Source: Gilliamella apicola (GTDB taxonomy: Bacteria > Pseudomonadota > Gammaproteobacteria > Enterobacterales > Orbaceae). From it: DNA of 64,000 nucleotides. Made by a program: the position numbers and the translations under genes. Below the pieces are notes generated by a model. It was given only the letters and a program-made list of their open reading frames with translations. It made no database searches and was not told the origin of the DNA. Of the stretch, positions 38,519-55,648 are shown piece by piece; position 1 is the stretch's first letter; every line of letters starts with the position of its first letter. The stretch is taken from the NCBI RefSeq assembly GCF_000599985.1, contig NZ_CP007445.1, forward strand, positions 744,001 through 808,000, read 5' to 3'.

Positions 38519-38530
38519 CGATAAAAGTGG

Positions 38531-38558: not shown

Positions 38559-38588
38559 GCATCCACTTCTTTCGAAGTATTCCAATAA

Positions 38589-38664: not shown

Positions 38665-38990
38665 ATTATTAATCTGCAAATGTTGAATAGAAAATAGACT
38701 TTCATTCGGATAATAAAAAATTTAGTTAATTACATTTAGGCTGAATTTCATGAAACTTATCTCAATATCTGATATATAAATAGTATCAATCATATTAAAA
38801 TTTAAGATTTATAAATGATAAAAATTATCTTAGATATTGTTATCATATATTTTCTATCCTTCCTATATATCTTAAATCTATATTAATTATAATTAGTAAC
38901 TTTACATTAGTTAGCGTATAATTTACAAAAATCAAAAAAAGTATAGAAAATCTAAATTAAATATAAAGATAATAAATGGAGTATTATTAT
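38665..38990. other. AT-rich gap before the first pilin gene
   Basis: About 326 bp between tRNA-Gly and the first flp gene. It is extremely AT-rich and should hold the promoter of that gene, but no clear -35/-10 pair was seen and no other feature was recognised. Confidence 0.4.
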
Positions 38991-39203
38991 ATGGACATAC
39001 AAGCGATTTTTACTCAGCTAAAATCAATCGGAATTAAATTTGCAAAAAATCAACGAGGCGTGCATGCGATTGAATATGCAATTATCTCATCAGGAATTAC
39101 AATGATAGTTTCAGTAATTTTTCTTGATGATAATGGTCCATTTAAAAATGCTTTAACTGAACTATTTAATAGACTAAAAGATAAATTAATTGCAATTATT
39201 TAA
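38991..39203 (+). CDS. flp: Divergent Flp/Fap-type type IVb prepilin
   Basis: A 70-residue prepilin with leader MDIQAIFTQLKSIGIKFAKNQRG and processing motif G|VHAIEYAIISSG, with Glu+5 and Tyr+6 as in all Flp pilins. The rest (SVIFLDDNGPFKNALTELFNRLKDKL) differs markedly from the seven tandem pilins and is more charged. The ATG at 38991 has GGAG nine bases upstream; an ATG five codons earlier lacks a site. It could be a minor or alternative pilin of the same Tad system. It has no terminator like those of the array. Confidence 0.85.
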   Translation: MDIQAIFTQLKSIGIKFAKNQRGVHAIEYAIISSGITMIVSVIFLDDNGPFKNALTELFNRLKDKLIAII

Positions 39204-39608
39204 GTTTGTTTTCTCTTTTTTCTAACTTCTCAGAAACACTAAAATAGATATAAATAACAGTTTTGGTTGATAAGGTTAAATTTCTGATATAACTATTTAA
39301 ACTTATACAGTTTCACTTTTTCTAAAGTAACAAATATTCAATTTATTTCTGTTATTTATTCACCTTTATTAGTTGATTTTTTATATTTAGTTAAAAATAA
39401 CTTATTGTTCATAATAATTAGTTATTTTATTTGTATTTTTATGCAATTAACAATCAATTTAATTTTTATGGTTCTTATTTTTTTACTATTCAGTAACAAT
39501 TTGTTTTTAATTTAATTTTTTAAAAACGTATATTTGTATTTAGTAGTTTTATATAAATCACATATAATCTGTTAGATATTTGTTGTATTTTGTTAAAAAA
39601 GTTAAATT
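39204..39608. other. AT-rich spacer between first flp and pilin pseudogene
   Basis: About 400 bp, extremely rich in A and T. No open frame, RNA gene or copy of the array promoter was seen. Confidence 0.4.
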
Positions 39609-39794
39609 AAGATATTTTGCAAGTAAATTTATCAAAAATGAATGTGGTGTAACAGCAATTGAATAGGCAATGTTTCAGCAGGTATTTCAGCAGTGATTAT
39701 GTTTATCTTTGATACAGAGGGCAATGGACTTGTTTATAAAATGTTAATATATGTCCTTCCGAACTTTGGGATAAAAATTAAAAAGTATTTTTGA
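39609..39794 (+). pseudogene. Decayed flp pilin
   Basis: DNA here still matches the array pilins from FASKFIKNE through VTAIE, but the Tyr+6 codon is now TAG (39664-39666) and a small deletion shifts the frame just after. In the new frame it reads AGISAVIMFIF and continues to a stop at 39794. The 5' end and start codon are not recognisable. It is a dead copy at the upstream edge of the array. Confidence 0.8.
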
Positions 39795-40313: not shown

Positions 40314-40547
40314 ATGTTATATTTATCAGCGGTTCGCGCTCAAGCAAGAAATTTTGCAAGTAAATTTATCAAAAATGAACGTGGTGTAACAGCTATTGAA
40401 TACGCAATTGTTGCTGCAGGTGTTTCTGCGGTAGTTTTATATATCTTTGGTGGTAGTGGTCCAGTTAAAGGCATGTTGAACAATGTGTTTAATCAATTGT
40501 CAAGTAAACTATCTACTGTTGTTAACGGTGCTGGTAACGGCAACTAA
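40314..40547 (+). CDS. flp: Flp major pilin, array copy 1
   Basis: A 77-residue type IVb prepilin. The leader of 24 residues (MLYLSAVRAQARNFASKFIK...) ends at the TadV cleavage site ERG|VTAIEY, leaving a 53-residue mature pilin with Glu+5 and Tyr+6 and one hydrophobic helix (AIVAAGVSAVVLYIF). It differs from the other copies by SGP in place of NGP at residues 48-50 and by its tail NGAGNGN. AAGGAA lies upstream of the ATG. It has its own promoter and terminator. Confidence 0.95.
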   Translation: MLYLSAVRAQARNFASKFIKNERGVTAIEYAIVAAGVSAVVLYIFGGSGPVKGMLNNVFNQLSSKLSTVVNGAGNGN

Positions 40548-40605
40548 TCAATTGTCAAGTAAGCTATCTACCGTTATTGGCGGTTCTGATGACGGTAGCA
40601 TGTAA
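40546..40605 (+). other. Silent pilin 3'-end cassette of copy 1
   Basis: A second copy of the pilin 3' end starts within the stop codon region, 55 bp after its counterpart in the gene and in a different frame. In frame it would read NQLSSKLSTVIGGSDDGSM then stop. No start codon or ribosome site precedes it. Confidence 0.75.
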
Positions 40606-40621
40606 TTGTCAGTCTAATGTT

Positions 40622-40644
40622 AACCGCCCTTTATAAGGGCGGTT
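40622..40644 (+). terminator. Terminator of array pilin 1
   Basis: A 10-bp perfect stem, AACCGCCCTT-TAT-AAGGGCGGTT, followed by TATTCTTT. The same hairpin follows six of the seven array pilins. Confidence 0.88.
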
Positions 40645-41120
40645 TATTCTTTATAAGAATTTGTGTAATTTTATTTTGTAAGTCAACTTATTCCTCTAAA
40701 TCATAAATTAGGCAATATATCTAAAAAAGATGTGTGTATCTGTTTAGGTTGATAATTTTAACCTCCCGTTTTCTATTGTTTATATTTAATTATCATCTAT
40801 TATCGTATCGGTTTGTCGCATATAGCATTTCGTAATAATTAAACAAATAAAAACAAAATGAATCTTATCCGCTTATCGTTTATTGATAATATCAATTAAA
40901 TTATTTTTCTTTTATTGTTTGTGATAATTTTCAATTTAGTAAAGCGTCTATCCTCGAATCAATTATTAATAAATTAACATTAATTTAACTTTTAATTAGC
41001 TAATTTTAATGTTTTACAATTCTGGTTTTATATTGCTGGATTACTTTCAGTAAAATAAATTTTAATTAAAAAGATTAAAAAAAATGCAATTAATGCTGGA
41101 AAAGTGATATTCATTCACAT

Positions 41121-41126
41121 ATAATG
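41121..41126 (+). promoter_or_regulatory. -10 box of array pilin 2
   Basis: TATAAT just after GTGA-TATTCAT-TCAC, a variant of the GCGA-N7-TCGC repeat of other copies in which both arms have changed together. Confidence 0.6.
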
Positions 41127-41193
41127 TGAAAAATTGATAATCATAAAGTAAATTAATATTAAAAAATATGTAAATATTTAGGAGAAAGCTATT

Positions 41194-41433
41194 ATGTTAT
41201 ATTTATCAGCGGTTCGTGCTCAAGCAAGAAATTTTGCAAGTAAATTTATCAAAAATGAACGTGGTGTAACAGCTATTGAATACGCAATTGTTGCTGCAGG
41301 TGTTTCTGCGGTAGTTTTATATATCTTTGGTGGTAACGGTCCAGTTAAAACTATGTTCTATCTTGTGTTTACTCAATTGCAAGTTAAACTATCTAATATC
41401 GTCAGTAACGCCGGTGATGGCAATTTCAATTAA
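41194..41433 (+). CDS. flp: Flp pilin, array copy 2 with rewritten C-terminus
   Basis: A 79-residue prepilin identical to the other copies to about residue 52 (leader, G|VTAIEY, hydrophobic helix, GGNGPVK), then distinct: TMFYLVFTQLQVKLSNIVS with the tail NAGDGNFN. The last codons and the TAA lie on a short sequence (AATTTCAATTAAAAAG) that elsewhere belongs to the non-coding spacer upstream of pilin genes. So a deletion between the gene end and the next spacer seems to have supplied the new stop. It has no cassette or terminator, so read-through into copy 3 is possible. Confidence 0.93.
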   Translation: MLYLSAVRAQARNFASKFIKNERGVTAIEYAIVAAGVSAVVLYIFGGNGPVKTMFYLVFTQLQVKLSNIVSNAGDGNFN

Positions 41434-41481
41434 AAAGGTTAAAAAATGCATTTAATGCTGGAAAGGCGATATTTATTCGTA

Positions 41482-41487
41482 TATAAT
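41482..41487 (+). promoter_or_regulatory. -10 box of array pilin 3
   Basis: TATAAT 69 bp before the start codon and only about 50 bp beyond the stop of pilin 2, showing that the promoter region survived the deletion of the spacer. Confidence 0.58.
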
Positions 41488-41555
41488 GTGAAAACTTTAT
41501 AACTATAAAGTAAATTAATATTAAAAAATATGTAAATGTTTAGGAGAAAGCTATT

Positions 41556-41786
41556 ATGTTATATTTATCAGCGGTTCGCGCTCAAGCAAGAAATTTTGCA
41601 AGTAAATTTATCAAAAATGAACGTGGTGTAACAGCTATTGAATACGCAATTGTTGCTGCAGGTGTTTCTGCGGTAGTTTTATATATCTTTGGTGGTAATG
41701 GTCCAGTTAAAGCCATGTTGAACAATGTATTTAATCAATTGTCAAGTAAACTATCTAGTGTTGTTACCAGTTCCGGCAACAACTAA
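41556..41786 (+). CDS. flp: Flp major pilin, array copy 3
   Basis: A 76-residue prepilin with the shared leader, G24|V25 processing site with Glu+5/Tyr+6, and the shared helix. It differs in the last ten residues (SSVVTSSGNN), one residue shorter than copies 4-7. The ribosome site AGGAGAAAGCTATT is the same as in the following copies. Transcription may come from its own promoter or from pilin 2. Confidence 0.95.
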   Translation: MLYLSAVRAQARNFASKFIKNERGVTAIEYAIVAAGVSAVVLYIFGGNGPVKAMLNNVFNQLSSKLSSVVTSSGNN

Positions 41787-41844
41787 TCAATTGTCAAGTA
41801 AACTATCTACTGTTATCAGCGGTTCTGGTAACGGTAGCATGTAA
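41785..41844 (+). other. Silent pilin 3'-end cassette of copy 3
   Basis: A repeat of the pilin 3' end beginning 52 bp after its counterpart, so out of frame; it would end ...STVISGSGNGSM. Confidence 0.75.
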
Positions 41845-41860
41845 TTGTCAGTCTAATGTT

Positions 41861-41883
41861 AACCGCCCTTTATAAGGGCGGTT
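41861..41883 (+). terminator. Terminator of array pilin 3
   Basis: The array hairpin AACCGCCCTT-TAT-AAGGGCGGTT with TATTCTTT behind it; it would also stop any pilin 2-3 transcript. Confidence 0.88.
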
Positions 41884-42332
41884 TATTCTTTATAAGAATT
41901 TGTGTAATTTTATTTTATAAGTCAACTGATTCCTCTAGATCATAAATTAGGCAGTATATCTAAAAAGATGTGTGTATCTGTTTAGGTTGATAGTTTTAAC
42001 CTCCCGTTTTCTATCGTTTATATCTAATTATCATCTATTATCGTACCGGTTTGCCACATATAGCATTTCATAATAATTAAACTAATAAAAACAAAACACA
42101 TCTTATCGTTTATTGATAATATCAATTAAATTATTTTTCTTTTGTTGTTTGTGATAATTTTCAATTTAGTAAAGCGCCTATCCTCGAATTAATTATCAAT
42201 AAATTAACATTAATTTAACTGTTAATTAGCTAATTTTGATGTTTTACAATTCTGGTTTTATATGTCTGGATTATTTTCAGTAAAATAAATTTCAATTAAA
42301 AAGATTAAAAAAATGCATTTAATGCTGGAAAA

Positions 42333-42354
42333 GCGATATTTATTCGCATATAAT
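42333..42354 (+). promoter_or_regulatory. Promoter region of array pilin 4
   Basis: An inverted repeat GCGA-TATTTAT-TCGC (42333-42347) abuts TATAAT (42349-42354). Transcription would start near 42361, giving a leader of about 62 nt. The hexamer at the -35 position is a weak TGGAAA, so an activator may be needed. Confidence 0.55.
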
Positions 42355-42422
42355 GTGAAAACTTTATAACGATAAAGTAAATTAATATTAAAAAATACGT
42401 AAACGTTTAGGAGAAAGCTATT

Positions 42423-42656
42423 ATGTTATATTTATCAGCGGTTCGCGCTCAAGCAAGAAATTTTGCAAGTAAATTTATCAAAAATGAACGTGGTGTAACA
42501 GCTATTGAATACGCAATTGTTGCTGCAGGTGTTTCTGCGGTAGTTTTATATATCTTTGGTGGTAATGGTCCAGTTAAAGCCATGTTGAACAATGTATTTA
42601 ATCAATTGTCAAGTAAACTATCTACTGTTGTTAGCGGTGCTGGCGGCAACAACTAA
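42423..42656 (+). CDS. flp: Flp major pilin, array copy 4
   Basis: A 77-residue prepilin; its protein is identical to copies 5 and 6 (tail STVVSGAGGNN). Mature part of 53 residues after cleavage at G24|V25. The A at residue 53 (VKAM) separates copies 3-6 from copies 1 and 7 (VKGM). It is a complete transcription unit with its own promoter and terminator. Confidence 0.95.
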   Translation: MLYLSAVRAQARNFASKFIKNERGVTAIEYAIVAAGVSAVVLYIFGGNGPVKAMLNNVFNQLSSKLSTVVSGAGGNN

Positions 42657-42714
42657 TCAATTGTCAAGTAAACTATCTACTGTTATCAGCGGTTCTGGTA
42701 ACGGTAGCATGTAA
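42655..42714 (+). other. Silent pilin 3'-end cassette of copy 4
   Basis: Second pilin end 55 bp downstream of the first, sharing 30 identical bases at its start; alternative tail ISGSGNGSM. Confidence 0.75.
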
Positions 42715-42730
42715 TTGTCAGTCTAATGTT

Positions 42731-42753
42731 AACCGCCCTTTATAAGGGCGGTT
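42731..42753 (+). terminator. Terminator of array pilin 4
   Basis: Array hairpin with a 10-bp perfect stem and 3-nt loop, then TATTCTTT. Confidence 0.88.
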
Positions 42754-43202
42754 TATTCTTTATAAGAATTTGTGTAATTTTATTTTATAAGTCAACTGAT
42801 TCCTCTAGATCATAAATTAGGCAATATATCTAAAAAGAAGTGTGCATCTGTTTAGGTTGATAGTTTTAACCTCCCGTTTTCTATCGTTTATATTTAATTA
42901 TCATCTATTATCGTATCGGTTTGTCGCATATAGCATTTCATAATAATTAAACTAATAAAAACAAAACACATCTTATCGTTTATTGATAATATCAATTAAA
43001 TTATTTTTCTTTTGTTGTTTGTAATAATTTTCAATTTAGTAAAGCGCCTATCCTCGAATTAATTATCAATAAATTAACATTAATTTAACTGTTAATTAGC
43101 TAATTTTAATGTTTTACAATTCTGGTTTTATATGTCTGGATTATTTTCAGTAAAATAAATTTCAATTAAAAAGATTAAAAAAATGCATTTAATGCTGGAA
43201 AA

Positions 43203-43224
43203 GCGATATTTATTCGCATATAAT
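43203..43224 (+). promoter_or_regulatory. Promoter region of array pilin 5
   Basis: Same GCGA-N7-TCGC repeat and TATAAT (43219-43224) as copy 4. Confidence 0.55.
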
Positions 43225-43292
43225 GTGAAAACTTTATAACGATAAAGTAAATTAATATTAAAAAATACGTAAACGTTTAGGAGAAAGCTATT

Positions 43293-43526
43293 ATGTTATA
43301 TTTATCAGCGGTTCGCGCTCAAGCAAGAAATTTTGCAAGTAAATTTATCAAAAATGAACGTGGTGTAACAGCTATTGAATACGCAATTGTTGCTGCAGGT
43401 GTTTCTGCGGTAGTTTTATATATCTTTGGTGGTAATGGTCCAGTTAAAGCCATGTTGAACAATGTATTTAATCAATTGTCAAGTAAACTATCTACTGTTG
43501 TTAGCGGTGCTGGCGGCAACAACTAA
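43293..43526 (+). CDS. flp: Flp major pilin, array copy 5
   Basis: A 77-residue prepilin identical to copies 4 and 6. Its downstream spacer differs from that of copy 4 only at scattered bases (for example TTTATGAGAAT in place of TTTATAAGAAT), so the unit is a very recent duplicate. Confidence 0.95.
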   Translation: MLYLSAVRAQARNFASKFIKNERGVTAIEYAIVAAGVSAVVLYIFGGNGPVKAMLNNVFNQLSSKLSTVVSGAGGNN

Positions 43527-43584
43527 TCAATTGTCAAGTAAACTATCTACTGTTATCAGCGGTTCTGGTAACGGTAGCATGTAA
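43525..43584 (+). other. Silent pilin 3'-end cassette of copy 5
   Basis: Out-of-frame second pilin end, the same as in copy 4. Confidence 0.75.
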
Positions 43585-43600
43585 TTGTCAGTCTAATGTT

Positions 43601-43623
43601 AACCGCCCTTTATAAGGGCGGTT
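43601..43623 (+). terminator. Terminator of array pilin 5
   Basis: Array hairpin, identical stem and loop, then TATTCTTT. Confidence 0.88.
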
Positions 43624-44072
43624 TATTCTTTATGAGAATTTGTGTAATTTTATTTTATAAGTCAACTGATTTCTCTAGATTATAAATTAGGCAATATATC
43701 TAAAAAGAAGTGTGCATCTGTTTAGGTTGATAGTTTTAACCTCCCGTTTTCTATCGTTTATATTTAATTATCATCTATTATCGTATCGGTTTGTCGCATA
43801 TAGCATTTCATAATAATTAAACTAATAAAAACAAAACACATCTTATCGTTTATTGATAATATCAATTAAATTATTTTTCTTTTGTTGTTTGTAATAATTT
43901 TCAATTTAGTAAAGCGCCTATCCTCGAATTAATTATCAATAAATTAACATTAATTTAACTGTTAATTAGCTAATTTTAATGTTTTACAATTCTGGTTTTA
44001 TATGTCTGGATTATTTTCAGTAAAATAAATTTCAATTAAAAAGATTAAAAAAATGCATTTAATGCTGGAAAA

Positions 44073-44094
44073 GCGATATTTATTCGCATATAAT
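44073..44094 (+). promoter_or_regulatory. Promoter region of array pilin 6
   Basis: Same inverted repeat and TATAAT (44089-44094) as copies 4 and 5. Confidence 0.55.
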
Positions 44095-44162
44095 GTGAAA
44101 ACTTTATAACGATAAAGTAAATTAATATTAAAAAATACGTAAACGTTTAGGAGAAAGCTATT

Positions 44163-44396
44163 ATGTTATATTTATCAGCGGTTCGCGCTCAAGCAAGAAA
44201 TTTTGCAAGTAAATTTATCAAAAATGAACGTGGTGTAACAGCTATTGAATACGCAATTGTTGCTGCAGGTGTTTCTGCGGTAGTTTTATATATCTTTGGT
44301 GGTAATGGTCCAGTTAAAGCCATGTTGAACAATGTATTTAATCAATTGTCAAGTAAACTATCTACTGTTGTTAGCGGTGCTGGCGGCAACAACTAA
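44163..44396 (+). CDS. flp: Flp major pilin, array copy 6
   Basis: A 77-residue prepilin identical to copies 4 and 5; the third member of the near-perfect 870-bp repeats. With three identical genes the dosage of this pilin form should exceed that of the variants. Confidence 0.95.
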   Translation: MLYLSAVRAQARNFASKFIKNERGVTAIEYAIVAAGVSAVVLYIFGGNGPVKAMLNNVFNQLSSKLSTVVSGAGGNN

Positions 44397-44454
44397 TCAA
44401 TTGTCAAGTAAACTATCTACTGTTATCAGCGGTTCTGGTAACGGTAGCATGTAA
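44395..44454 (+). other. Silent pilin 3'-end cassette of copy 6
   Basis: Out-of-frame second pilin end, the same as in copy 4. Confidence 0.75.
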
Positions 44455-44470
44455 TTGTCAGTCTAATGTT

Positions 44471-44493
44471 AACCGCCCTTTATAAGGGCGGTT
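44471..44493 (+). terminator. Terminator of array pilin 6
   Basis: Array hairpin, identical stem and loop, then TATTCTTT. Confidence 0.88.
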
Positions 44494-44942
44494 TATTCTT
44501 TATAAGAATTTGTGTAATTTTATTTTATAAGTCAACTGATTTCTCTAGATTATAAATTAGGCAATATATCTAAAAAGAAGTGTGCATCTGTTTAGGTTGA
44601 TAGTTTTAACCTCCCGTTTTCTATCGTTTATATTTAATTATCATCTATTATCGTATCGGTTTGCCGCATATAGCATTTCATAATAATTAAACAAATAAAA
44701 ACAAAACGCATCTTATCGTTTATTGATAATATCAATTAAATTATTTTTCTTTTGTTGTTTGTGATAATTTTCAATTTAGTAAAGCGCCTATCCTCGAATT
44801 AATTATTAATAAATTAACATTAATTTAACTGTTAATTAGCTAATTTTAATGTTTTACAATTCTGGTTTTATATGTCTGGATTATTTTCAGTAAAATAAAT
44901 TTCAATTAAAAAGATTAAAAAAATGCATTTAATGCTGGAAAA

Positions 44943-44964
44943 GCGATATTTGTTCGCATATAAT
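44943..44964 (+). promoter_or_regulatory. Promoter region of array pilin 7
   Basis: GCGA-TATTTGT-TCGC followed by TATAAT (44959-44964); the change is in the loop and the arms are kept. Confidence 0.55.
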
Positions 44965-45033
44965 GTGAAAACTTTATAACGATAAAGTAAATTAATATTA
45001 AAAAATACGTAAATGTTTTAGGAGAAAGCTATT

Positions 45034-45267
45034 ATGTTATATTTATCAGCGGTTCGCGCTCAAGCAAGAAATTTTGCAAGTAAATTTATCAAAAATGAAC
45101 GTGGTGTAACAGCTATTGAATACGCAATTGTTGCTGCAGGTGTTTCTGCGGTAGTTTTATATATCTTTGGTGGTAATGGTCCAGTTAAAGGCATGTTGAA
45201 CAATGTATTTAATCAATTGTCAAGTAAACTATCTACTGTTGTTAGCGGTGCTGGCGGCAACAACTAA
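45034..45267 (+). CDS. flp: Flp major pilin, array copy 7
   Basis: A 77-residue prepilin differing from copies 4-6 only at residue 53 (Gly for Ala, as in copy 1). It is the last intact pilin before the tad assembly genes. It has its own promoter, cassette and terminator; the spacer behind it diverges from the array after about 150 bp. Confidence 0.95.
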   Translation: MLYLSAVRAQARNFASKFIKNERGVTAIEYAIVAAGVSAVVLYIFGGNGPVKGMLNNVFNQLSSKLSTVVSGAGGNN

Positions 45268-45325
45268 TCAATTGTCAAGTAAACTATCTACTGTTATCAG
45301 CGGTTCTGGTAACGGTAGCATGTAA
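45266..45325 (+). other. Silent pilin 3'-end cassette of copy 7
   Basis: Out-of-frame second pilin end with the tail ISGSGNGSM. Confidence 0.75.
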
Positions 45326-45341
45326 TTGTCAGTCTAATGTT

Positions 45342-45364
45342 AACCGCCCTTTATAAGGGCGGTT
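45342..45364 (+). terminator. Terminator of array pilin 7
   Basis: Array hairpin AACCGCCCTT-TAT-AAGGGCGGTT. It separates the pilin array from the tadA operon, so assembly genes need another promoter. Confidence 0.88.
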
Positions 45365-46304
45365 TATTCTTTATAAGAATTTGTGTAATTTTATTTTATA
45401 AGTCAACTTATTCCTCTAAATCCTAAATTAGGAAGTATATCTAAAAAAGGTAATTTAAGCATTTATATGTTTAACTTCATAATATTTCTCTTATACAGTT
45501 TAAATTGATAGTTAGACAATAACCTTATTATCCCTTCATGATCTAATCAATTGTAAAATATAATATTTTTAATAAAATTATTTAACAAAATGTTATAGCT
45601 TATTAAATACATAAACAAGATCTTTGATTATTAATTGTTTTAAGATAAATAATTAACATTATTGTTTTAATAATTAGTAATTTATAAAACCATTAGTTTC
45701 TTTTCATATATTTACCAATTATTTTGTTAATTATAAAATCTAGTCATACCTCTATTAGATTAACTATATGTTTTTTTATTTAATTTATATTAAGGAAATT
45801 AAAAAAAATACATTTAACGCTAGCAAATTTATACCAATTCGCATATAATGCAGAAAATTTTTGATAATAAAGTAAATTAATATTAAATATAACGTAAATT
45901 TTTGTATCAAAGGCAACTATAATATTTCGTTATTAGCAGCAAATTTCTTACAAATAGGAATTTTTACAGATTAAATTATCTAAATTGTATGTGATATAAC
46001 TGCGAAGGTATTTATAATCATTGTAAGTGGTATTTATTCAATGATTTTATTGATGATATGTAAATGTTAAATGTTAAATGTTAAATGTTATATTTGATTC
46101 ATTGAAATCAAAATTAACTGAAATCAATGATAAAAATATTTGTGGTTAATCGCTATTTTAATATCAACTTATCCACTTTATTAAAAAGATAAAGTAGTCG
46201 TTGTTTTAGAATGGTTTATTGTTGTTTAAATTTATAAGATAGAAGTTACCAGTACAATATGTTTGCTAGTAGCTTTTGTTAGTTAGGAGTTCGAACAAAA
46301 CGCT
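45365..46304. other. Long non-coding region before tadA
   Basis: About 940 bp. Apart from the decayed flp unit and the four TAAATGT repeats, it has a small inverted repeat ACTTTAT-N7-ATAAAGT at 46175-46195. The promoter of the tadA operon should be in the last 150 bp (TATAAG near 46235 is a weak candidate), but none is clear. Confidence 0.45.
45790..46065 (+). pseudogene. Decayed flp unit between the array and tadA
   Basis: The DNA keeps the array promoter layout: ATTAAAAAAAATACATTTAA, CGCATATAATG (TATAAT 45844-45849), and AAAGTAAATTAATATTAAA. It then continues with a ruined pilin: AGCAAATTTCTTACAA in place of the leader, GTGATATAACTGCG for the VTA region, and a hydrophobic stretch reading IIVSGIYSMILLMI. 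No start codon or ribosome site remains. A 7-bp motif TAAATGT occurs four times in a row directly after (46061-46088). Confidence 0.65.
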
Positions 46305-47612
46305 ATGGCTAATGAACAATTTAAGTTTTCAAATGAATGGGGTAAGGTTCGTGATTTAGTTTTTCAAGTACTAGATCTTGATTTGATTGATCAATTCAAA
46401 AAAGAACCAAACCGTGTTTTGCGTGAAATTCAAACTATTATTAGAGATATCATTAATTCAGGTAGCGCGTATATAACGGCAGATGAGTCCAATGTATTGG
46501 CAGGAATGATTTGTGATGAGATTGTCGGTTATGGTCCAATTGATTCTTTAATGAAAGATGAGACAGTCAATGATATTTTAGTAAATGGTCCTAATAGCAT
46601 TTATGTTGAACGGGGAGGAATTCTTAGTAAAACTGATAAATTTTTTATTAGTGAACGCCAGTTACTTGATATTGCAAGGCGACTTGTAAATAAAGTAGGA
46701 AAGAATATAGATGAATCACACCCTTTAGTTGATTCTCGAATGCCTGATGGTAGTCGTCTTAATGTTGTAATTCCTCCAATTGCTATTGATGGCACTTCAA
46801 TGTCAATTCGTAAATTTGGTAATGGTCACCGAACATTTCATGATTTAATTAGATTTGGTTCTTTAAATGAACATATGGCAAACTTTTTAGTGATTGCTGC
46901 TCGTTGTCGAATGAATATTATTATATCCGGTGGTACAGGTTCTGGTAAAACAACAATGCTCAATGCACTATCTGGATTTATTGGTGAGCATGAACGAACC
47001 ATTACTCTTGAAGATGCAGCAGAATTAAGACTTCAACAAGATCATGTCGTTAGAATGGAAACGAAAAGTGGTGGTGAAGATGGGCGTGGCAAAGTAACTA
47101 TGCGAGATCTCTTAGTTAATGCTTTGCGTATGAGACCAGACCGAATTGTTTTAGGAGAATGCCGAGGAGAAGAGGCCTTTGAGATGTTACAAGCTATGAA
47201 TACAGGTCATAGTGGTTCTATGTCAACTCTGCATGCTAATACTGCTAAAGATGCATTAGCTCGTTTGGAAAGTATGATTATTATGGCTCAGTCCGAATTA
47301 CCTATTGCCGCAATTAAGCGTTATATTAGCTCATCAGTTAATTTTATTATTCAAGTCTCACGTCTTCCTGATGGTCAACGTAAAGTAATGAGTATTACGG
47401 AAATTGTTGGGCAAGAATCAGGCAATATTGTTACTCAAGATGTATTTGAATTTCGAGTTGATGATGAGCGAGATACTAATGGTAAAATTCAAGGTGAATT
47501 TGTTTGTAATGGCTTAGTGAAACGCTCCGCACTTTATGAAAGTGCCCAATATTATGAAATGTCAGATATTTTAGAGAAACTGATGTTAAATGCTATGGGA
47601 ATTCAATCATGA
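46305..47612 (+). CDS. tadA: TadA/CpaF, secretion ATPase of the Tad pilus
   Basis: A 435-residue hexameric type II/IV secretion ATPase. The N-terminal domain has [17 protein letters not shown], followed by Walker [13 protein letters not shown] (residues 208-219), the Asp box [12 protein letters not shown], Walker [20 protein letters not shown] and the His box [13 protein letters not shown]. It powers polymerisation of Flp pilins from the cytoplasm. An AGGAG lies 15 bases before the ATG, a little far. It opens the assembly operon and overlaps tadB by four bases. Confidence 0.95.
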
Positions 47613-48535
47613 TTTTTGTACTATCAGTAGCACTTATTTTTGCTGCTATTATGAATATTATTATATTGCGTCGTCGTCGAGAACGTTTGCAGGTTTTCTA
47701 CAATGTTGAACCTAAAACTACGTCGTTATCAAGTTTAGTTGAAAGTCAGATTAATAGTAAACAGCAATCTTTCTTAGATGAGGTCTTATTTGATATAAAT
47801 GCATGGATAAAATTAAATTATCGCTTACTAATGATGGGACCATCTAAAGCTAGAACGTTTATGTATATTTTAGTTGGAACTGTTGCATGTATTTTTTTAA
47901 ATCAAAAATATCTACATTACGATATTTACGTTGTTATACCAGTAGGTTTTTATGTTTCTATTTCTATAATTTGTATTATTAGAAAAAAGAAACTTAAAAC
48001 TGAATTTTATGCAAATTTTCCTGAGGCATTGAATATTATTACAGGTCTTATTGCTTCTGGTTATGCAATAACTACAACTTTTAAAAATTGTGCAAATTCT
48101 GTCGATGGAATCGTTGGCACAACGTTCAAAGAAATGAATGATAGATTAGATGTAGGAGATAGCGTTGAAAATGTTATGTTCAACTCTTATCTACAACTTC
48201 CGTTCCCTGAATATTATTTTTTCATTTTGACTGTAATGGTTAATCTTGATAGTGGTGGGGAATTAAAAGAAATTTTTGGTCGCTTAAGTAAAATGTTAAC
48301 AAACAATCGAATTATGGCTAAAACAAGAGATGGTAAAACTGCTGAATTAAGAATGACCATGTATATCTTAGGTGTGATGCCTTTCGGGTTTATTTTCATA
48401 CTTAGATTTGTATCCGAAACTAATTATGATCTTTTGATGAATTCAGATGGTGGTCGCTATATTTTGTACTATGTTATAGGTAGTGTTGTTATTGGTTTTC
48501 TACTTATTAAAAGTTGGATTAACAAAATTATTTAA
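47609..48535 (+). CDS. tadB: TadB, inner-membrane platform protein
   Basis: A 308-residue membrane protein with an N-terminal helix, two central helices (about 88-130) and C-terminal helices (about 245-300), and a type II secretion F domain (FPEALNIITGLIASGYAITTTFKNC). TadB and TadC form the GspF-like platform on which pilins are assembled. Its ATG overlaps the tadA stop (ATGA). Confidence 0.92.
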   Translation: MIFVLSVALIFAAIMNIIILRRRRERLQVFYNVEPKTTSLSSLVESQINSKQQSFLDEVLFDINAWIKLNYRLLMMGPSKARTFMYILVGTVACIFLNQKYLHYDIYVVIPVGFYVSISIICIIRKKKLKTEFYANFPEALNIITGLIASGYAITTTFKNCANSVDGIVGTTFKEMNDRLDVGDSVENVMFNSYLQLPFPEYYFFILTVMVNLDSGGELKEIFGRLSKMLTNNRIMAKTRDGKTAELRMTMYILGVMPFGFIFILRFVSETNYDLLMNSDGGRYILYYVIGSVVIGFLLIKSWINKII

Positions 48536-48538
48536 ATT

Positions 48539-49411
48539 ATGAATATGTTACTATATATATTGGCATCAGTTTTTCTTATCGGTATTGGCTCTAGACAGCT
48601 ATTTATCACCTATTCGTTTCTTAAAAACAAGGAAAAGATTAGTTTACTTCTGAATAATGAAAATCAAGAAAAAATTGTTCCTAAAAAACATCTGAATGAA
48701 AAGAATGCTGCTTTTGAAAAAATTATAGCAAAGAATAGTATATTTATAAGTTTTTTAAAAAATTTCCAGGATAAAAACATCTGGAAAATATATGCTGTTA
48801 TTATTGTATTTTCAATTTTTTATTTGATAAATCAACTTGTTGAATTTATGGAAGTTGATTCAAGTCTATTATTGATTATCCTGTTATTCATTGTAATTTC
48901 AGTCATAATGTTACCAGATTTTATTGTTAAAAAACAAACAGCCAAGAAAATCAGAATGGTTTCACGGGATTTGCCATTAATTATTGATATGTTGGCAATT
49001 ATGGTGAGATCTGGTATGACAGTTGAAAGTAGTTTTAGATATTTAAGTACAAGGGTAAAACCGATTAATAAAGATATTGCTGCTATTTTAGAAAGAGCTT
49101 GTTTAATGATGGATGTTAATGGTATTGAACTTTCAATTGATCTAATCCAACGTGAAGTACCCTGCAAAGAGGTTAGAATGTTTTGTGTAACATTAAAAAG
49201 AAGTATTAGCTATGGCAATTCCATTTTTGACGCTTTATTAGATTTATCAACTGAGATTCGAGAGTTGCAGCGGTTAACTATAGAAGAAAAAATTGCTGCT
49301 CTTGCCGCTAAACTAACAATACCAACGATGGTATTTTTTCTAGCACCAGTCCTTGCGATTATTGCTGGACCTGTTTTTATGAATATTCTGTCAACGTTTA
49401 ATAGGATGTAG
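48539..49411 (+). CDS. tadC: TadC, inner-membrane platform protein
   Basis: A 290-residue membrane protein of the same GspF class as TadB, with helices near the N-terminus, at about 88-120 and at the C-terminus (AKLTIPTMVFFLAPVLAIIAGPVFM). The F-domain motif is LPLIIDMLAIMVRSGMTVESSFRYL. It starts three bases after the tadB stop and is followed by tadD after five bases. Confidence 0.92.
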   Translation: MNMLLYILASVFLIGIGSRQLFITYSFLKNKEKISLLLNNENQEKIVPKKHLNEKNAAFEKIIAKNSIFISFLKNFQDKNIWKIYAVIIVFSIFYLINQLVEFMEVDSSLLLIILLFIVISVIMLPDFIVKKQTAKKIRMVSRDLPLIIDMLAIMVRSGMTVESSFRYLSTRVKPINKDIAAILERACLMMDVNGIELSIDLIQREVPCKEVRMFCVTLKRSISYGNSIFDALLDLSTEIRELQRLTIEEKIAALAAKLTIPTMVFFLAPVLAIIAGPVFMNILSTFNRM

Positions 49412-49416
49412 AGATA

Positions 49417-50814
49417 ATGAATTATTTTTCAAGATGCTGTAAATCAAGAAGGTTATTAGAACCAAAATTTATGGTTGTATGTTCAATGTTACTTTTTGTT
49501 GTTGGGTGTCAGAACAGTACATTAAAGCATGATGTGGATGAACAACAAAAAATTTACATTAATGAAACAACGAAAAATTATGGAGGTCTAATTGAACTGT
49601 ATAAACAGCGCTTGCAACGTGCAGATACAGAAGATACCAGACATAAACTTGCCAGAGCTTATTATCAGACAAATGATTTTCAAGCTGTAAAAAGAGTTTT
49701 GGAACCTATAATTAAAAAAACCAAGAATGATGGCATTCTCATTTTGTACGGTCATGTTGAATCTAGACTAGGGCATAATGATACGGCATTAGAATATTTG
49801 AATAAGGCAATTGAAATTAATAGTAAAAATGGTGAAGCATATAATGTTAAAGGTATTGTTTTACTCAAAAAAAGACAATACGATGCTGCTCGATATGCAT
49901 TTAATGAAGCCAGAGAAAACTTTTATGATGAAAATAAAGTTACTAATAATTTAGCTATGTTATCAATTTTAAATAAAGATTATACTGAAGCTTATAATCA
50001 GCTTAATATTTTATATACAAAAGGTTATCGCGATTCAACAATTCTTCATAATTTACTTTTTACATTAGTAAAATTGGATAGAATGCAATTAGCGAAATCA
50101 TTCTGTCTTACACATAAACTATCTAATGAACCAGATATCTTAGTGCAAGAATTAAAACGAATTGAACCAATTGATGCTATCAAATTTAATGAAATCAAGC
50201 CTTCACAAAGTGATATTCAAAAACAATACACAACTGAAAAAACGACAGGACAGTTAGCATTTAACAATTCAGAAACAGAAGTTGCTATTAAGTCTAAAAA
50301 CCAAAATAAATCAGCAAATTCAACTAAATCATTAACTCCAGCTAAATCAGGATCTAATGTTAAACTGTCGAATATGACTAAATTAGATCCTGCGGATTCA
50401 TCTACTAATGTAGCGTCTACTTCTCAGAAACAAACAGATAAAACAGCAATCACTCAGTCTACCATACTAGCAGTTCGTTCTGGAGAACATGGGAAATTTA
50501 GTCGAATTACTTTTGAAACTGAAGCTAAATTGAGTAAAAAAAATTATTTAATTGAAAAAATTTCACCAACAGAATTTAAATTGTCATTTTATGATGTGAC
50601 ACTACCTGCTGAGGGAATCGATAAAATTATCAAACGTATATCAAGTAGTGAACGCGATTTTGCTACTGTTAAAGGAACCTTAACCGCTGAAAAAACATTG
50701 ATTCTAGAAATAAAAACTAAACAAAACTCAATAGTGAAAGATTTTTATGCTGGACCTAATTCTAAAGGAAAAGCTCACTGCTTTGCGTTTGATTTTTACT
50801 TAGAAAAGAAATAA
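49417..50814 (+). CDS. tadD: TadD-like TPR lipoprotein with extra C-terminal domain
   Basis: A 465-residue lipoprotein (lipobox VVGC, Cys31). Residues about 50-240 contain TPR repeats (GHNDTALEYLNKAIEINSKNGEAYNVKG). A linker rich in S, T, N and K (about 265-345) leads to a C-terminal beta-rich domain, AVRSGEHGKFSRITFETEAK ... DFYLEKK, resembling AMIN-type cell-wall-binding domains. Typical TadD proteins are near 250 residues, so the last 200 are an unusual extension. TadD helps assemble the secretin; the added domain may tether it to peptidoglycan (inference). Confidence 0.82.
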   Translation: MNYFSRCCKSRRLLEPKFMVVCSMLLFVVGCQNSTLKHDVDEQQKIYINETTKNYGGLIELYKQRLQRADTEDTRHKLARAYYQTNDFQAVKRVLEPIIKKTKNDGILILYGHVESRLGHNDTALEYLNKAIEINSKNGEAYNVKGIVLLKKRQYDAARYAFNEARENFYDENKVTNNLAMLSILNKDYTEAYNQLNILYTKGYRDSTILHNLLFTLVKLDRMQLAKSFCLTHKLSNEPDILVQELKRIEPIDAIKFNEIKPSQSDIQKQYTTEKTTGQLAFNNSETEVAIKSKNQNKSANSTKSLTPAKSGSNVKLSNMTKLDPADSSTNVASTSQKQTDKTAITQSTILAVRSGEHGKFSRITFETEAKLSKKNYLIEKISPTEFKLSFYDVTLPAEGIDKIIKRISSSERDFATVKGTLTAEKTLILEIKTKQNSIVKDFYAGPNSKGKAHCFAFDFYLEKK

Positions 50815-50862: not shown

Positions 50863-51720
50863 ATGAAAGATAAAAAATTAATTGTTCTATATTTAGCCAT
50901 GATAATTGTGGGGCTAGCCTTGCTTTTTACTAAGTCAGCTCCCCCGCCTGTTGAGCAGAAAGCAGAACCTATTGTCGTGGAACCTCCTAAAAAGGAAGAG
51001 CCTAAAACTGAGATTATTAATGTTGCAGTGGCAAAACGTGATATTAGTAAGAAAACGATTTTGACAAAAGATGATTATTATTTTAAGTCAATTGAAGTTG
51101 CTATTAATAGAGAAAGACCTAATTTTATAACTGAACCGGCTAGACTTGATGCTTACGTTGCTAAAAACCATATTGCAAAAGATACAGTGATCGAAGAGAG
51201 TCTTGTTGCATCGCCGAATTCAGAAGATTATATTTTATTAGCACTTAAAGAAGGAAACTACATGTTTCCATTTAACTTAGACCCAATAGATTCTTATTTA
51301 ATGAAGAATTTGAAAAGCGGGGATTTGATTGATCTTTATGTGTTTTATGGTGATGAAACAGAAAGAAGTGCCAATAGCAAAGAGGAAAAATTAGTCTCAC
51401 CTAGTCGTGATTTTGTTAAAAATCGTTTAAAACCGATTATTGTCGGGAAGAAAGTTTTATACTTTGATCGTGGAGAAGATGACTTAGACAAAAATTATAA
51501 CAAAAATAATGTTGCTCAGGTTCAATTGGAACTTTCAAATCAGGAAATTAAATTATTAAGAACTTTAATGACAAACTCCACAATTATTATGTATCCAAGT
51601 ACATTCAAAAAAAATGTTGAAGATGGATTACGTCTCCTAAGTGATAAAGAAAAAAATTGGCCTCTATCTGAAAAAGATATTTTTTCAGGGACACGAATTA
51701 ATACGTTAAAAGGTAACTAA
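50863..51720 (+). CDS. rcpC: RcpC/CpaB, Tad pilus assembly protein
   Basis: A 285-residue protein with an N-terminal membrane anchor (LIVLYLAMIIVGLALLF), a Pro/Glu/Lys linker (about 25-45) and a SAF domain (INVAVAKRDISKKTILTKDDY ... IAKDTVIEESLV), the layout of RcpC/CpaB. It probably links secretin and peptidoglycan. GGAG five bases before the ATG supports the start; rcpA follows by two bases. Confidence 0.9.
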   Translation: MKDKKLIVLYLAMIIVGLALLFTKSAPPPVEQKAEPIVVEPPKKEEPKTEIINVAVAKRDISKKTILTKDDYYFKSIEVAINRERPNFITEPARLDAYVAKNHIAKDTVIEESLVASPNSEDYILLALKEGNYMFPFNLDPIDSYLMKNLKSGDLIDLYVFYGDETERSANSKEEKLVSPSRDFVKNRLKPIIVGKKVLYFDRGEDDLDKNYNKNNVAQVQLELSNQEIKLLRTLMTNSTIIMYPSTFKKNVEDGLRLLSDKEKNWPLSEKDIFSGTRINTLKGN

Positions 51721-51722
51721 GA

Positions 51723-53168
51723 ATGCTAATAAGAATTAAATCAATTATCAACGCGATCAAACTTTTAGTCTGTTTATTATCTATTGGTTTTTCTTCGCTG
51801 ACCTTTGCTAATATTCATAACTTACAGATTGGTCAGAGTAAAACGTTAATGTTACCTGAAAATGTTGGTACAGTGTTTATTAGCCAAGATAGCATAGCAA
51901 ATTATGAGGTTATTGATGGTAAATCATTAATTATATACGGGAAAGCAAATGGAAGAGCAAGTTTAATAGTTTATGATAGTGATAATAATATTATAATTAA
52001 TGATACTATTAATGTTGATCCACTTTTATATCAAATTACAAATAGACTTGCACAAAATTTTCCGAATAGTACTATAACAATCGACCGCTACGACAGTATT
52101 GATACTGGTGGTAAATTTGTGTATGTAGTAAGTGGTACTACGCCAGACAGCACAACAAAAGGTAAAATAATGGCACTTATAGGTTCTTCAATTGGGCAAA
52201 ATGCAGAACGTGTAAGAATGGAGTACAGTGGCAGTACAGGGCAAGGTAACGAAGCTCTTACATTTCAAGATTATTATACCTACAGTAATATAGTAGATAA
52301 TATTAAAGTAATAGAAGAGTATCAGGTTAATGTACAACTAACCTTTGTAGAAGTTAGTAAAGAGTTTACTGATTCACTAGGTATAGAATGGCAAAGTTTA
52401 ACTCTTGACAGCATGACTTCTAGTGGTTCTGATACTACCACCATCAACTCAATTGGTGAATTTTCCCTATTAGGGATAAGAAAAGGATTAAATATTCATA
52501 ATATTACTACTATGATCCGCGCTATAAAAAATGATCGTTTAGCTAAAGTATTAGCACAACCTAATTTATCTGTGCTGTCTGGTGAATTTGCATCGTTTTT
52601 GGTTGGTGGTGAAATACCTATTGTTACTAAAAACAAAGAAGGTGATTCAAGTGTTACTTACAAAGAATATGGTATTAAGTTGAATATTACCTCAAAAGTT
52701 AATAGTGATAAACGCATAAGATTATTTATGGAAAATGAAGTGAGTTCAGTTTCTGGTTCCTATTCTTTTAATAATTATAATATTCCTACGTTGACTTCTC
52801 GAAAAACAAAATCCACTATTGATTTATCTGATGGTGAAAGTTTTGTTATAGCGGGATTAATTACTGAAAATGATCAAGAACAACTATCTCGTCTTCCTTT
52901 TATCAGTGATATTCCTATTTTAGGTGCATTAGCACGCAGTTCATCAGCTAATCGTTCTAAAACTGAAATGATTGTTTTTGCGACAGTAAATTTAGTTACA
53001 TCAAAAAACAGTTTTGATAATAATATTGAATTACCAACTCTAGAGCGGACGGATGTAATCAATAGTTTCTTCAATATTAAAAATAATATGAATAAAGAAA
53101 GAAATAAAACAATACCAGCTTCTAACGAAAGTGAAAAATTTATTAATGATATGGGCTTTATTGAATAA
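51723..53168 (+). CDS. rcpA: RcpA/CpaC secretin of the Tad pilus
   Basis: A 481-residue secretin with a signal peptide (through SIGFSSLTFA, about residue 29), a pilus-specific N-domain (HNLQIGQSKTLMLPENVGTVFISQDSIANYEV), a BON-like region, and the secretin core (LAKVLAQPNLSVLSGEFASFLVGGEIPI ... DGESFVIAGLITEN ... LSRLPFISDIPILGALARS ... ELVI-like EMIVFATVNLV). It forms the outer-membrane pore for Flp. No rcpB gene follows it, unlike in Aggregatibacter. Confidence 0.94.
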   Translation: MLIRIKSIINAIKLLVCLLSIGFSSLTFANIHNLQIGQSKTLMLPENVGTVFISQDSIANYEVIDGKSLIIYGKANGRASLIVYDSDNNIIINDTINVDPLLYQITNRLAQNFPNSTITIDRYDSIDTGGKFVYVVSGTTPDSTTKGKIMALIGSSIGQNAERVRMEYSGSTGQGNEALTFQDYYTYSNIVDNIKVIEEYQVNVQLTFVEVSKEFTDSLGIEWQSLTLDSMTSSGSDTTTINSIGEFSLLGIRKGLNIHNITTMIRAIKNDRLAKVLAQPNLSVLSGEFASFLVGGEIPIVTKNKEGDSSVTYKEYGIKLNITSKVNSDKRIRLFMENEVSSVSGSYSFNNYNIPTLTSRKTKSTIDLSDGESFVIAGLITENDQEQLSRLPFISDIPILGALARSSSANRSKTEMIVFATVNLVTSKNSFDNNIELPTLERTDVINSFFNIKNNMNKERNKTIPASNESEKFINDMGFIE

Positions 53169-53186: not shown

Positions 53187-54359
53187 ATGCAATTATTTGG
53201 TAATAAAAGAGATACAGATACATCATCAAATGTCCCATCACAAGAATTTGTTGTTGGACGAATATCTGGTTATAAAGTAGCTATTGTAAGTAAACGAGTT
53301 GAATTGATTGAAAAAGTCCGTTCTGTCCTGTTTTTGTATAATATATTGGGGATGGAGATTATTTCATTAACTTTACCTGAATTAAAAGAAACACCTGAAT
53401 GGAATCAGTTTGATGCGATAATTGTTGATATCCAAAGTGAGGATGATGCTGAACAGATTTCAGAAAACATTAATCGATGTATTCCTATCCAAGCAACGAC
53501 AATACTTGTTGGTAGTTATGATTCAATTCAATTTTCTGAATTTTTATTGAAAAAAGGAATTTATTTCTTATTGGAAAATAGTCAATTAGAAAAGATTCCA
53601 GAAATTTTACATAAGAGAAGTATTACACCGCCTGGATCAAGTCAAAGAGTAGGAAGTGTTATAACTTTCTTAGCTACTAAAGGTGGAATTGGGAATTCAT
53701 CTTTGGTTGTTCATACTATCAAGAAGATTAGTGATTTAACAAATTACCCACTTCTTTACATACAAGGAGCAACGACAAGTTCTAATGCTGATTTTTTATT
53801 TGAAATGCCAATACCTGACGATGGTTCACTAATTGACGTTGGTAATTCTTTACAGGTTAAAGTAGAAACTAATGAAAAGGCTTGGAATTACAAAGACCTT
53901 AATTCTGGAGAGTTCAATATTACTATTATTGATCAAAACATGGGATTATCTTCGTCGTTTAAGCATTTTGAGGAAATTATAACTTTTTCTAATATTATTT
54001 TTATTGTAATAAATAGAGATCCTTATTCTATCAAAGTTGCCAAGAAAATGTTAACTGAAATTTCTCGAGCCACTACTACAAATTACGATTTACTCAATAA
54101 GCGATTTTTAATTTGTTTAAACGATAATGTTCCATATGATAAAAAAACAGCTTTACGTGATTCAGATATTGAAGATTTTTTAGAACGGAAAATTGACTTT
54201 GTACGTAAATTTGTGCCAAGTATTGATAAATTCAAAAAAGCAAGTGAAAGTGCTGAAATAAAAGAAATAGCTGCAGCTATTATTGGTAATAAAGCAATAA
54301 ATGGTGCTCAACAAAAAACTTTCTTTCCGTTACTGAAGAAGAAAAAAAACAGTTTTTAA
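53187..54359 (+). CDS. tadZ: TadZ/CpaE, pilus-localising ParA/MinD-like protein
   Basis: A 390-residue protein with an N-terminal receiver-like domain (about 28-140, FDAIIVDIQSED) and a C-terminal ParA/MinD-type domain. The P-loop reads ATKGGIGNSS (residues 163-172): the signature Lys165 is kept, but the usual second Lys is Asn170. TadZ/CpaE proteins often have such atypical P-loops, so this is a family trait rather than a defect. It would place the Tad machine at the cell pole. It sits between rcpA (18 bp) and tadE (18 bp). Confidence 0.9.
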   Translation: MQLFGNKRDTDTSSNVPSQEFVVGRISGYKVAIVSKRVELIEKVRSVLFLYNILGMEIISLTLPELKETPEWNQFDAIIVDIQSEDDAEQISENINRCIPIQATTILVGSYDSIQFSEFLLKKGIYFLLENSQLEKIPEILHKRSITPPGSSQRVGSVITFLATKGGIGNSSLVVHTIKKISDLTNYPLLYIQGATTSSNADFLFEMPIPDDGSLIDVGNSLQVKVETNEKAWNYKDLNSGEFNITIIDQNMGLSSSFKHFEEIITFSNIIFIVINRDPYSIKVAKKMLTEISRATTTNYDLLNKRFLICLNDNVPYDKKTALRDSDIEDFLERKIDFVRKFVPSIDKFKKASESAEIKEIAAAIIGNKAINGAQQKTFFPLLKKKKNSF

Positions 54360-54377: not shown

Positions 54378-54860
54378 ATGCTGAAACGTTGGAGATTATT
54401 TGCTGGTGAAAAAAATGGAGTTGTTACAATACAGTTTGCCGTTATTTTTCCTTTTTTACTTATTCTTTTTTTGATAGCGTTTGAATTTAGTCGAATTATG
54501 ATTATTGGTTCGGCACTAGATTTAATGACTACAGAAATAACAAGACGGACAGCAATCACTGAGCAAGACGATTATGCAGAGAAAATTGAAGGTCTAATTC
54601 AATCTGAAGTTCCTTTATGGCCTTATATTGCTGATACTAAGAATTTCAGTGTTAATTTAAAATATTGTAAAAAGGTGAGTGAAGTTGTTGGTGATCAATG
54701 TCAGAGCGCTCTTACTGATGAAACCCATATATTACTATTTGATTTAAGATATCAGTATTTCTCAGTTTTTTCTCAACTTTTTAGTTTTCTTGATACAGCT
54801 TTAACAAGAAAAGTTGTTGTTTATCGTGAATTTATCAAAAGTGAAATGGTAGGACAGTAA
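54378..54860 (+). CDS. tadE: TadE-like pseudopilin
   Basis: A 160-residue pseudopilin: positively charged leader, cleavage motif KNG|VVTIQFAVIFPFLLILFLIAFEF with a single hydrophobic helix, then a small periplasmic domain with two cysteines (CKKVSEVVGDQC). The +5 residue after the cleavage Gly is Gln19 and not the usual Glu. TadE and TadF are needed for pilus assembly and are processed by TadV. Starts 18 bp after tadZ and runs into tadF with a 3-bp gap. Confidence 0.85.
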   Translation: MLKRWRLFAGEKNGVVTIQFAVIFPFLLILFLIAFEFSRIMIIGSALDLMTTEITRRTAITEQDDYAEKIEGLIQSEVPLWPYIADTKNFSVNLKYCKKVSEVVGDQCQSALTDETHILLFDLRYQYFSVFSQLFSFLDTALTRKVVVYREFIKSEMVGQ

Positions 54861-54863
54861 GTA

Positions 54864-55625: not shown

Positions 55626-55648
55626 AAGTATGCTTTTGAGAGGATGAT

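Follow-up and report, generated by a model that had tools for sequence, protein, structure and literature searches.

The honey bee gut bacterium Gilliamella apicola carries seven intact Flp (Tad) pilin genes, arranged head to tail at positions 40314–45267 of the window, the 64,000-nucleotide stretch of DNA analyzed here (bases 744001–808000 of the G000 contig; G000, the genome of the window, is one contig of 3,139,412 bases). The genes lie upstream of a Tad pilus locus. We consider it probable, at roughly 0.6, that they form a recombination-homogenized array of autonomous flp units, which would raise the supply of pilin and tolerate variation in the exposed tail of the protein. The array is unusual in the number of its genes and is well explained by known processes.

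Organization of the flp array

All seven open reading frames (ORFs) are intact, and a genome scan returned seven Flp_Fap matches above the cut-off within the array (E values of 4.8e-14 and 6.5e-14 for genes 1 and 4 in the Pfam scan), in agreement with the first-pass annotation of this DNA, which had described seven pilin genes in one array. The three consecutive near-identical units that it had reported were also observed. Genes 4, 5, and 6 are 100% alike over 234 bp, and their units are 3–9 bases apart per 870 bp: there are 3 base differences between units 4 and 5, 8 and one indel between units 5 and 6, and 9 and one indel between units 4 and 6. Unit 3 differs from unit 4 by 13 base differences and a 3-base gap. 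The spacers behind genes 4–6 (636–637 bp) differ at 3–9 bases, and the spacer between genes 1 and 2 shows 93–94% identity to the other long spacers. All of the 11 reported matches to the unit in the G000 genome fall in this region.

The start-to-start spacings of genes 1–7 are 880, 362, 867, 870, 870, and 871 bp. The period of about 870 bp, which had been assigned to the array, is thus limited to units 3–6 and does not hold for the intervals between genes 1 and 2 (880 bp) and between genes 2 and 3 (362 bp, with a spacer of only 122 bp), so that the array is a non-uniform repeat. Likewise, the seven genes do not represent the entire flp content of the region, which also includes a divergent intact copy, a decayed copy, and a weak relic.

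Each of the seven array genes is preceded by a promoter-like site of the form TGGAAA-17-TATAAT, and a ribosome-binding site is present at each intact array copy. These seven equivalent sites are among nine in the region that score 10/12. In the alignment of 33 Gilliamella flp genes, the block comprising the -10 element, the leader, and the ribosome-binding site exhibited a mean column identity of 69%, with the -10 element and the ribosome-binding site among the best-kept columns. The case for the promoters is based on the placement of the sites and on this genus-wide alignment, not on the overall number of matches. The region contains 13 terminator-like sites, compared to 2.3 ± 1.4 in shuffled sequences; six of the 13 are one identical hairpin located after genes 1, 3, 4, 5, 6, and 7, and the other seven, which lie inside genes, are taken as a by-product of the coding sequence.

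A possible stem-loop in the 5′ untranslated region (5′ UTR) of the flp genes is only a lead. In the alignment, 84.0% of the cells can pair, compared to 77.4 ± 1.2 in the shuffled controls, 12 cells are changed on both sides (2.6 ± 1.4 shuffled), and the covariation score is 0.212 (0.116 shuffled). Pairs with a double change (2 vs 1.8) and further pair types (7 vs 8.0) were at chance, and RNAalifold predicted no pairs in the flp leader. An Rfam scan of positions 38000–47000 detected no family at the gathering score besides the tRNA gene at 38589–38661, which is located just upstream of the distal flp copy.

Concerted evolution and copy number in Gilliamella

Within G000, the spacers are 87.7–99.5% identical, with a mean of 94.9% over 15 pairs, and the means within the three other array-bearing genomes are 80.2% (G012, 21 pairs), 93.0% (G029, 3 pairs), and 90.0% (G033, 1 pair). 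In contrast, the means between genomes are 57.6–68.5%, and those of G000 against the other three only 57.6–58.5%. The tadA DNA of the same four genomes is 88–94% identical (88% for that of the window against the other three). In a tree of the coding sequences, which was built from DNA and in which the G033b_2 row is one base out of frame and still usable, the seven G000 genes cluster together (support 99/99), as do G029_2–4 (100/100), G033a_1–3 (99/97), and six of the eight G012 genes (95/94). The exceptions are G012_1, which groups with G033b_1 (100/99), G029_1, which joins this pair weakly (90/69), and G012_3, which is unplaced. Because the spacers are alike within genomes and not between them, and because most inner genes group by genome, the sequence comparisons indicate concerted evolution, in which copies are alike within and unlike between genomes. 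The recent amplification or continuing homogenization that had been proposed for the array is therefore supported, both by the spacers (80–95% within vs 58–69% between genomes) and by the mostly genome-specific groups.

The grouping of G012_1 with G033b_1 is expected if the array predates the split of these genomes and only the inner copies were homogenized. Judged from its position in the tree, the first gene seems to be older than the split of G012 and G033 and to have been spared homogenization. Since G000 stands apart in the flp tree, one or more origins of the arrays are possible. A proposal that the N-terminal part of the gene is more homogenized than the spacers was dropped, as 2 of 9 pairs were nominally significant, in opposite directions (G012_2 v 4, p=0.02; G012_8 v 4, p=0.04). 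A run-length test that included 560 upstream bases was unreliable and was not used, as sequence far upstream of gene 1 lies outside the unit and aligned poorly.

With thresholds of E≤1e-80 for tadA and E≤1e-3 for flp, tadA was detected in 14 of 35 Gilliamella genomes and flp in the same 14, indicating that flp tracks the pilus machine. In this comparison, which includes one genome per species, flp arrays were found in four genomes, with seven genes in G000, eight in G012, four in G029, and at least five, on two contigs, in G033. The first-pass expectation that copy number varies thus held at the level of species. The TadA proteins of G012, G029, and G033 are the most similar to that of the window (96–97% identical), whereas the remaining ten tadA-bearing genomes have TadA proteins of 86–89% identity and one tadA-linked flp each, together with a second, divergent flp match in five of the ten. 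The linked flp is located 116–261 bp before tadA in these ten genomes, compared to 778–1037 bp in the array genomes. A contig filed under an Apibacter metagenome-assembled genome (L039) carries a tadA 97% identical to that of the window and is probably misbinned.

The caution that short-read assemblies may collapse the array is partly borne out by draft contigs, which are interrupted in this region: one contig of G033 begins 103 bp before an array gene, and that of G023, a genome with one tadA-linked flp, ends 297 bp before flp. Of the 120 flp clusters listed, 55 have a longest contig of <2 kb, according to our own count without a control. The collapse of arrays in drafts is unlikely to explain all of the single-flp genomes, because the distance between flp and tadA differs between the two groups; in nine of the ten, the contig includes another 10 kb or more of upstream sequence. 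The converse explanation, that near-identical units were over-expanded in one assembly, is in our estimation highly improbable, because the differences between units are scattered and a similar array is present in a relative sequenced with PacBio. This relative, G012, taken as wkB7, carries eight tandem flp genes on a single contig, and wkB7 is reported to have been sequenced by PacBio RS II and MiSeq (PMC5090037). A third single-contig genome, G029, has four.

Further flp sequences flank the array on both sides (Table 1). The distal intact copy clusters with the distal flp of G029 (support 100/100). The relics were searched for in a space of about 9 kb, which renders their E values lenient. 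Weak flp matches were also observed about 160–370 bp before tadA in G012, G029, and G033 (E values of 0.013, 0.02, and 0.038, respectively). Because the weak relic and these matches sit before tadA, where the ten other genomes keep their flp, the array may have taken over from a tadA-linked flp, which would later have decayed.

Decayed copies at either end of the array and the shortened unit of genes 2–3 are what a birth-and-death process predicts, and the species differ in copy number. These observations would also be consistent with a neutral expansion, in which tandem duplication and unequal crossing-over at long direct repeats would have generated the array incidentally and the extra copies bring no gain. 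We regard this explanation as unlikely: seven promoter-like sites and six terminators have been retained, all seven genes are intact, non-synonymous change in codons 1–45 is zero in the 21 G000 pairs (G012 and G029 show some), and arrays are found in four genomes.

Variable tails and the weighing of explanations

Gene 2 differs from gene 4 by 1 change in the first 143 bases and then diverges. Synonymous changes number 1/34 in codons 1–45 and 12/23 thereafter (p=1.9e-05), indicating that gene 2 is a mosaic with respect to gene 4. On visual inspection, the final codons and the stop of gene 2 resemble spacer DNA, and the sequence suggests that the 122-bp gap between genes 2 and 3 is likely a deletion, with the end of gene 2 at the junction. 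The terminator scan of the region found no terminator after gene 2, and a gene 2 transcript would therefore be expected to run into gene 3. Past the stop codon of six of the seven genes (1 and 3–7), a second pilin-like 3′ end with a different tail is present in the +1 frame, which is perhaps a displaced older tail.

The same division between the N- and C-terminal parts was observed in the related pilins. Among the 120 listed of 146 proteins, the mean entropy was 0.35 bits at alignment positions 1–45 and 1.52 bits after them. At positions 50–72 the entropy followed a helical period of about 95–100 degrees, with a peak at 95 degrees (p=0.0016, permutation); V52, M55, V59, F60, L63, K66, and L67 are conserved, with most of the intervening positions free to vary. 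Between genomes, the ratio of non-synonymous to synonymous change (pN/pS) was 0.15–0.26 for codons 1–45 and 0.53–0.68 for the codons after them. In the Caulobacter Tad pilus, the mature pilin forms an amphipathic helix whose C-terminal end is directed outward, and an RNA phage binds exposed pilin surfaces (PMC11067988).

These features raise an alternative in which the array is primarily a diversification device, that is, a store of variant tails from which conversion alters the pilus surface, for escape from phages or competitors or for host binding, with several pilins co-assembling. In addition to the C-tail entropy and its helical pattern, the mosaic gene 2, and the Caulobacter phage that binds exposed pilin surfaces (PMC11067988), this explanation accounts for the divergent-tail copies in G012 (gene 3) and G029 (gene 1), for the additional tail-like sequence that follows six of the seven genes, and for the tails ending in NFN, like that of gene 2, in P0005, P0013, and P0017. 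However, most G000 copies are identical or nearly so, which makes for poor storage, and genomes with a single linked flp also differ in their tails. A promoter-like site is present at every intact copy, unlike in silent-cassette systems; together with the ribosome-binding site at each of the seven intact copies, this led us to reject antigenic variation from silent cassettes. We therefore consider the diversification device a tentative alternative, which is somewhat unlikely. Conversely, pure dosage is insufficient as an explanation, because it leaves the different C-terminal tail of one array member, gene 2, unaccounted for.

The preferred interpretation, a homogenized array that raises pilin supply and tolerates tail variation, combines these elements as follows. 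An array of self-contained units, each composed of a promoter-like site, a ribosome-binding site, and a pilin gene, with a terminator in six of the seven, would have replaced the single tadA-linked flp. Unequal crossing-over and gene conversion, presumably by a RecA route, would change the copy number and keep the units alike, in accordance with the observed pattern of identity. Several identical units would be active side by side, providing the surplus of major pilin relative to the machinery that a filament requires. By recombination, an individual copy could also come to encode a divergent C-terminal tail, which is the outward-facing portion of the helix, and variant tails, once they arise, would spread by conversion. 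As a result, the pilus surface would diversify, presumably to the benefit of the cell, while the assembly-critical N-terminal part stays uniform, as in the diversity pattern of the pilins.

In Frischella perrara, a related bee symbiont, deletion of the major Flp pilin abolished pili and caused the strongest colonization defect among the deletion mutants tested (PMC10104596). Because that symbiont needs its major Flp pilin for pili and for normal colonization, pilin supply is, by analogy, a plausible target of selection in Gilliamella.

Several observations weigh against the preferred interpretation. Promoter-like matches number 46 in the region, compared to 60.9 in shuffles, and do not exceed chance; the seven sites are called promoter-like since their activity is predicted from sequence. 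The tail pN/pS values, which are <1, fit relaxed constraint as well as diversifying change, the copies of G012 and G029 also differ in codons 1–45 (pN 0.057 and 0.041; pN/pS 0.29 and 0.13, respectively), and the contrast between the N- and C-terminal parts was not significant in the eight pairs other than genes 2 and 4. With regard to homogenization, some G012 spacer pairs are just 62–69% alike, the N-terminal part was significantly more homogeneous than the neighboring spacer in none of the three G000 pairs tested (p 0.07–0.21), and the small p value of the run tests in G012 (p 0.0002, among 8 pairs listed of 21) could arise from rate differences between coding sequence and spacer. A fresh lineage-specific duplication can give a similar tree for the inner genes, and the G000 flp genes do not join those of the other three array genomes in the flp tree. 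Finally, assembly quality is confounded with flp layout: the ten single-linked-flp genomes are all drafts, whereas the array genomes other than G033 each consist of one contig.

If the array does change by recombination, the symbiont could alter the number or surface of its pili without point mutation, and the array would be of most interest if copy number or tails change within strains. It would also provide a simple bacterial case of concerted evolution in a surface-protein gene, and short-read bee metagenomes may misjudge this locus.

The Tad locus and comparison with known systems

The genes downstream of the array (Table 1), together with the array itself, provide the components by which a Tad/Flp locus is recognized, namely, Flp pilin, TadA, TadB and TadC, RcpA and RcpC/CpaB, and a prepilin peptidase. 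The best NCBIfam match of the tadA product is the TadA family, below the curated cut-off, and the ORF in the place of tadZ had no family match in Pfam or NCBIfam. In the window, flp adjoins tadA, and the tadD-like gene is followed by the genes for the RcpC-like protein and the secretin. Among the loci L055–L118, flp lies about 4–5 kb upstream of tadA in most of the others with a match; as judged from gene order, modules of the Tad locus may be rearranged between loci. Elsewhere in the window, positions 30134–33260 contain genes for PilN-like and secretin proteins that belong to a separate system for DNA uptake or type IV pilus formation.

Table 1. Positions in the window of the flp array, its associated elements, and the downstream Tad locus.
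Feature	Position	Strand	Remarks
Divergent intact flp, distal	38976..39203	+	75 aa; Flp_Fap E 2.8e-07, 30.6 bits, below cut-off 32.2
Decayed flp	about 39605..39793	+	in-frame TAG; nhmmer E 4.4e-31
flp gene 1	40314..40547	+	77 aa; intact ORF
flp gene 2	41194..41433	+	79 aa; divergent C-tail
flp gene 3	41556..41786	+	76 aa
Promoter-like TGGAAA-17-TATAAT, gene 4	42326..42354	+	equivalents at 40218, 41097, 41459, 43196, 44066, 44936
Possible 5′ UTR stem-loop, gene 4	42361..42378	+	begins 7 nt past TATAAT; equivalents at other genes
flp gene 4	42423..42656	+	77 aa; same sequence as genes 5, 6
Second pilin-like 3′ ends	40546–40605, 41785–41844, 42655–42714, 43525–43584, 44395–44454, 45266–45325	+	genes 1, 3, 4, 5, 6, 7
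Spacer, genes 4–5	42657..43292	+	636 bp; 3 differences vs spacer 5–6
Terminator-like hairpin, gene 4	42731..42753	+	same at 40622, 41861, 43601, 44471, 45342
flp gene 5	43293..43526	+	same sequence as genes 4, 6
flp gene 6	44163..44396	+	same sequence as genes 4, 5
flp gene 7	45034..45267	+	1 base off genes 4–6: residue 53 Ala to Gly
Weak relic, tadA-proximal flp	about 45934..46119	+	nhmmer --max E 0.0014; upstream of tadA
tadA, assembly ATPase	46305..47612	+	T2SSE; TIGR03819 TadA 313 bits, below cut-off 373
tadB and tadC, platform proteins	47609..49411	+	T2SSF in both
tadD-like TPR protein	49417..50814	+	TPR
rcpC/cpaB-like	50863..51720	+	SAF; CpaB 35.9 bits, below cut-off 71
rcpA/cpaC secretin	51723..53168	+	Secretin, T2SS-T3SS_pil_N
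tadZ-like	53187..54359	+	by position only
tadE, tadF, tadG-like	54378..57643	+	TadE, TadF above cut-off; Tad and VWA_2 in third just below
RCC1-repeat protein	57676..59103	+	475 aa; RCC1_2 E 5.2e-23; signal-like N-terminus (by eye)
Prepilin peptidase	59103..59558	+	Peptidase_A24

A gene for an RCC1-repeat protein lies inside the Tad locus and adjoins the prepilin peptidase gene. Relatives of this protein (E≤1e-20) were found in 12 of the 35 Gilliamella genomes, all 12 with tadA; the tadA genomes without a relative are G016 and G023. The protein is fast-changing, with an identity of 57–59% where that of TadA is 96–97%, and from its sequence we consider it a candidate pilus-linked adhesin. In a broader scenario, which we regard as rather unlikely, recombination in the multi-promoter flp array would set the gene number and move tails, giving mixed Tad filaments with a fast-changing outer face and a uniform assembly part, accompanied by the fast-changing RCC1-repeat protein.

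In a sample of 276 genomes of the class, 20 had an Flp match; G000 had eight and the other 19 one or two, which agrees with the earlier statement that the copy number here exceeds the usual one. In a sample of 397 genomes of the phylum, 165 had an Flp match, and the eight of G000 were the highest count, followed by at least seven and, in three genomes, at least six; up to about 17 candidates were scored per genome, so that the other counts are possibly low. When four genomes were rescored with all candidates, one with seven was found to have them dispersed, and two had three in a row. The 80 named tadA loci were compared for flp positions only, on the + strand only, and several of them include little upstream sequence; L040 has four flp matches, no other has more than two, and 13 have none.

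A partial search of the open-licence literature yielded no published description of the Gilliamella flp array, and the available part of PMC6668835 makes no mention of flp arrays. The four flp genes of Bdellovibrio were called the largest and most diverse complement known in 2017, and some Bdellovibrio relatives are reported to carry three TAD-associated and three other flp genes (PMC5430801). The flp1–4 genes of Bdellovibrio bacteriovorus likewise encode small Flp pilins beside a Tad machine (PMC5430801), whereas Gilliamella has seven to eight mostly alike units in one homogenized array. Two other Pseudomonadota in our samples, G551 and G312, likewise have adjacent, regularly spaced flp genes, three within about 1 kb; compared by layout, these differ from the Gilliamella array in having three copies and short spacing.

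Tandem repeats that evolve in concert are more alike within than between species, and their edge units escape. In contrast to such repeats in general, the unit here is a short gene for a surface-filament protein with a promoter-like site of its own. The pilS/pilE system of Neisseria is a recombining pilin repertoire with a conserved N-terminal part and a variable C-terminal part. The Gilliamella array resembles it in this division of the pilin and in its mosaic copy, whereas it differs in that no promoterless cassettes were observed among its intact copies and in that its pilins belong to another class.

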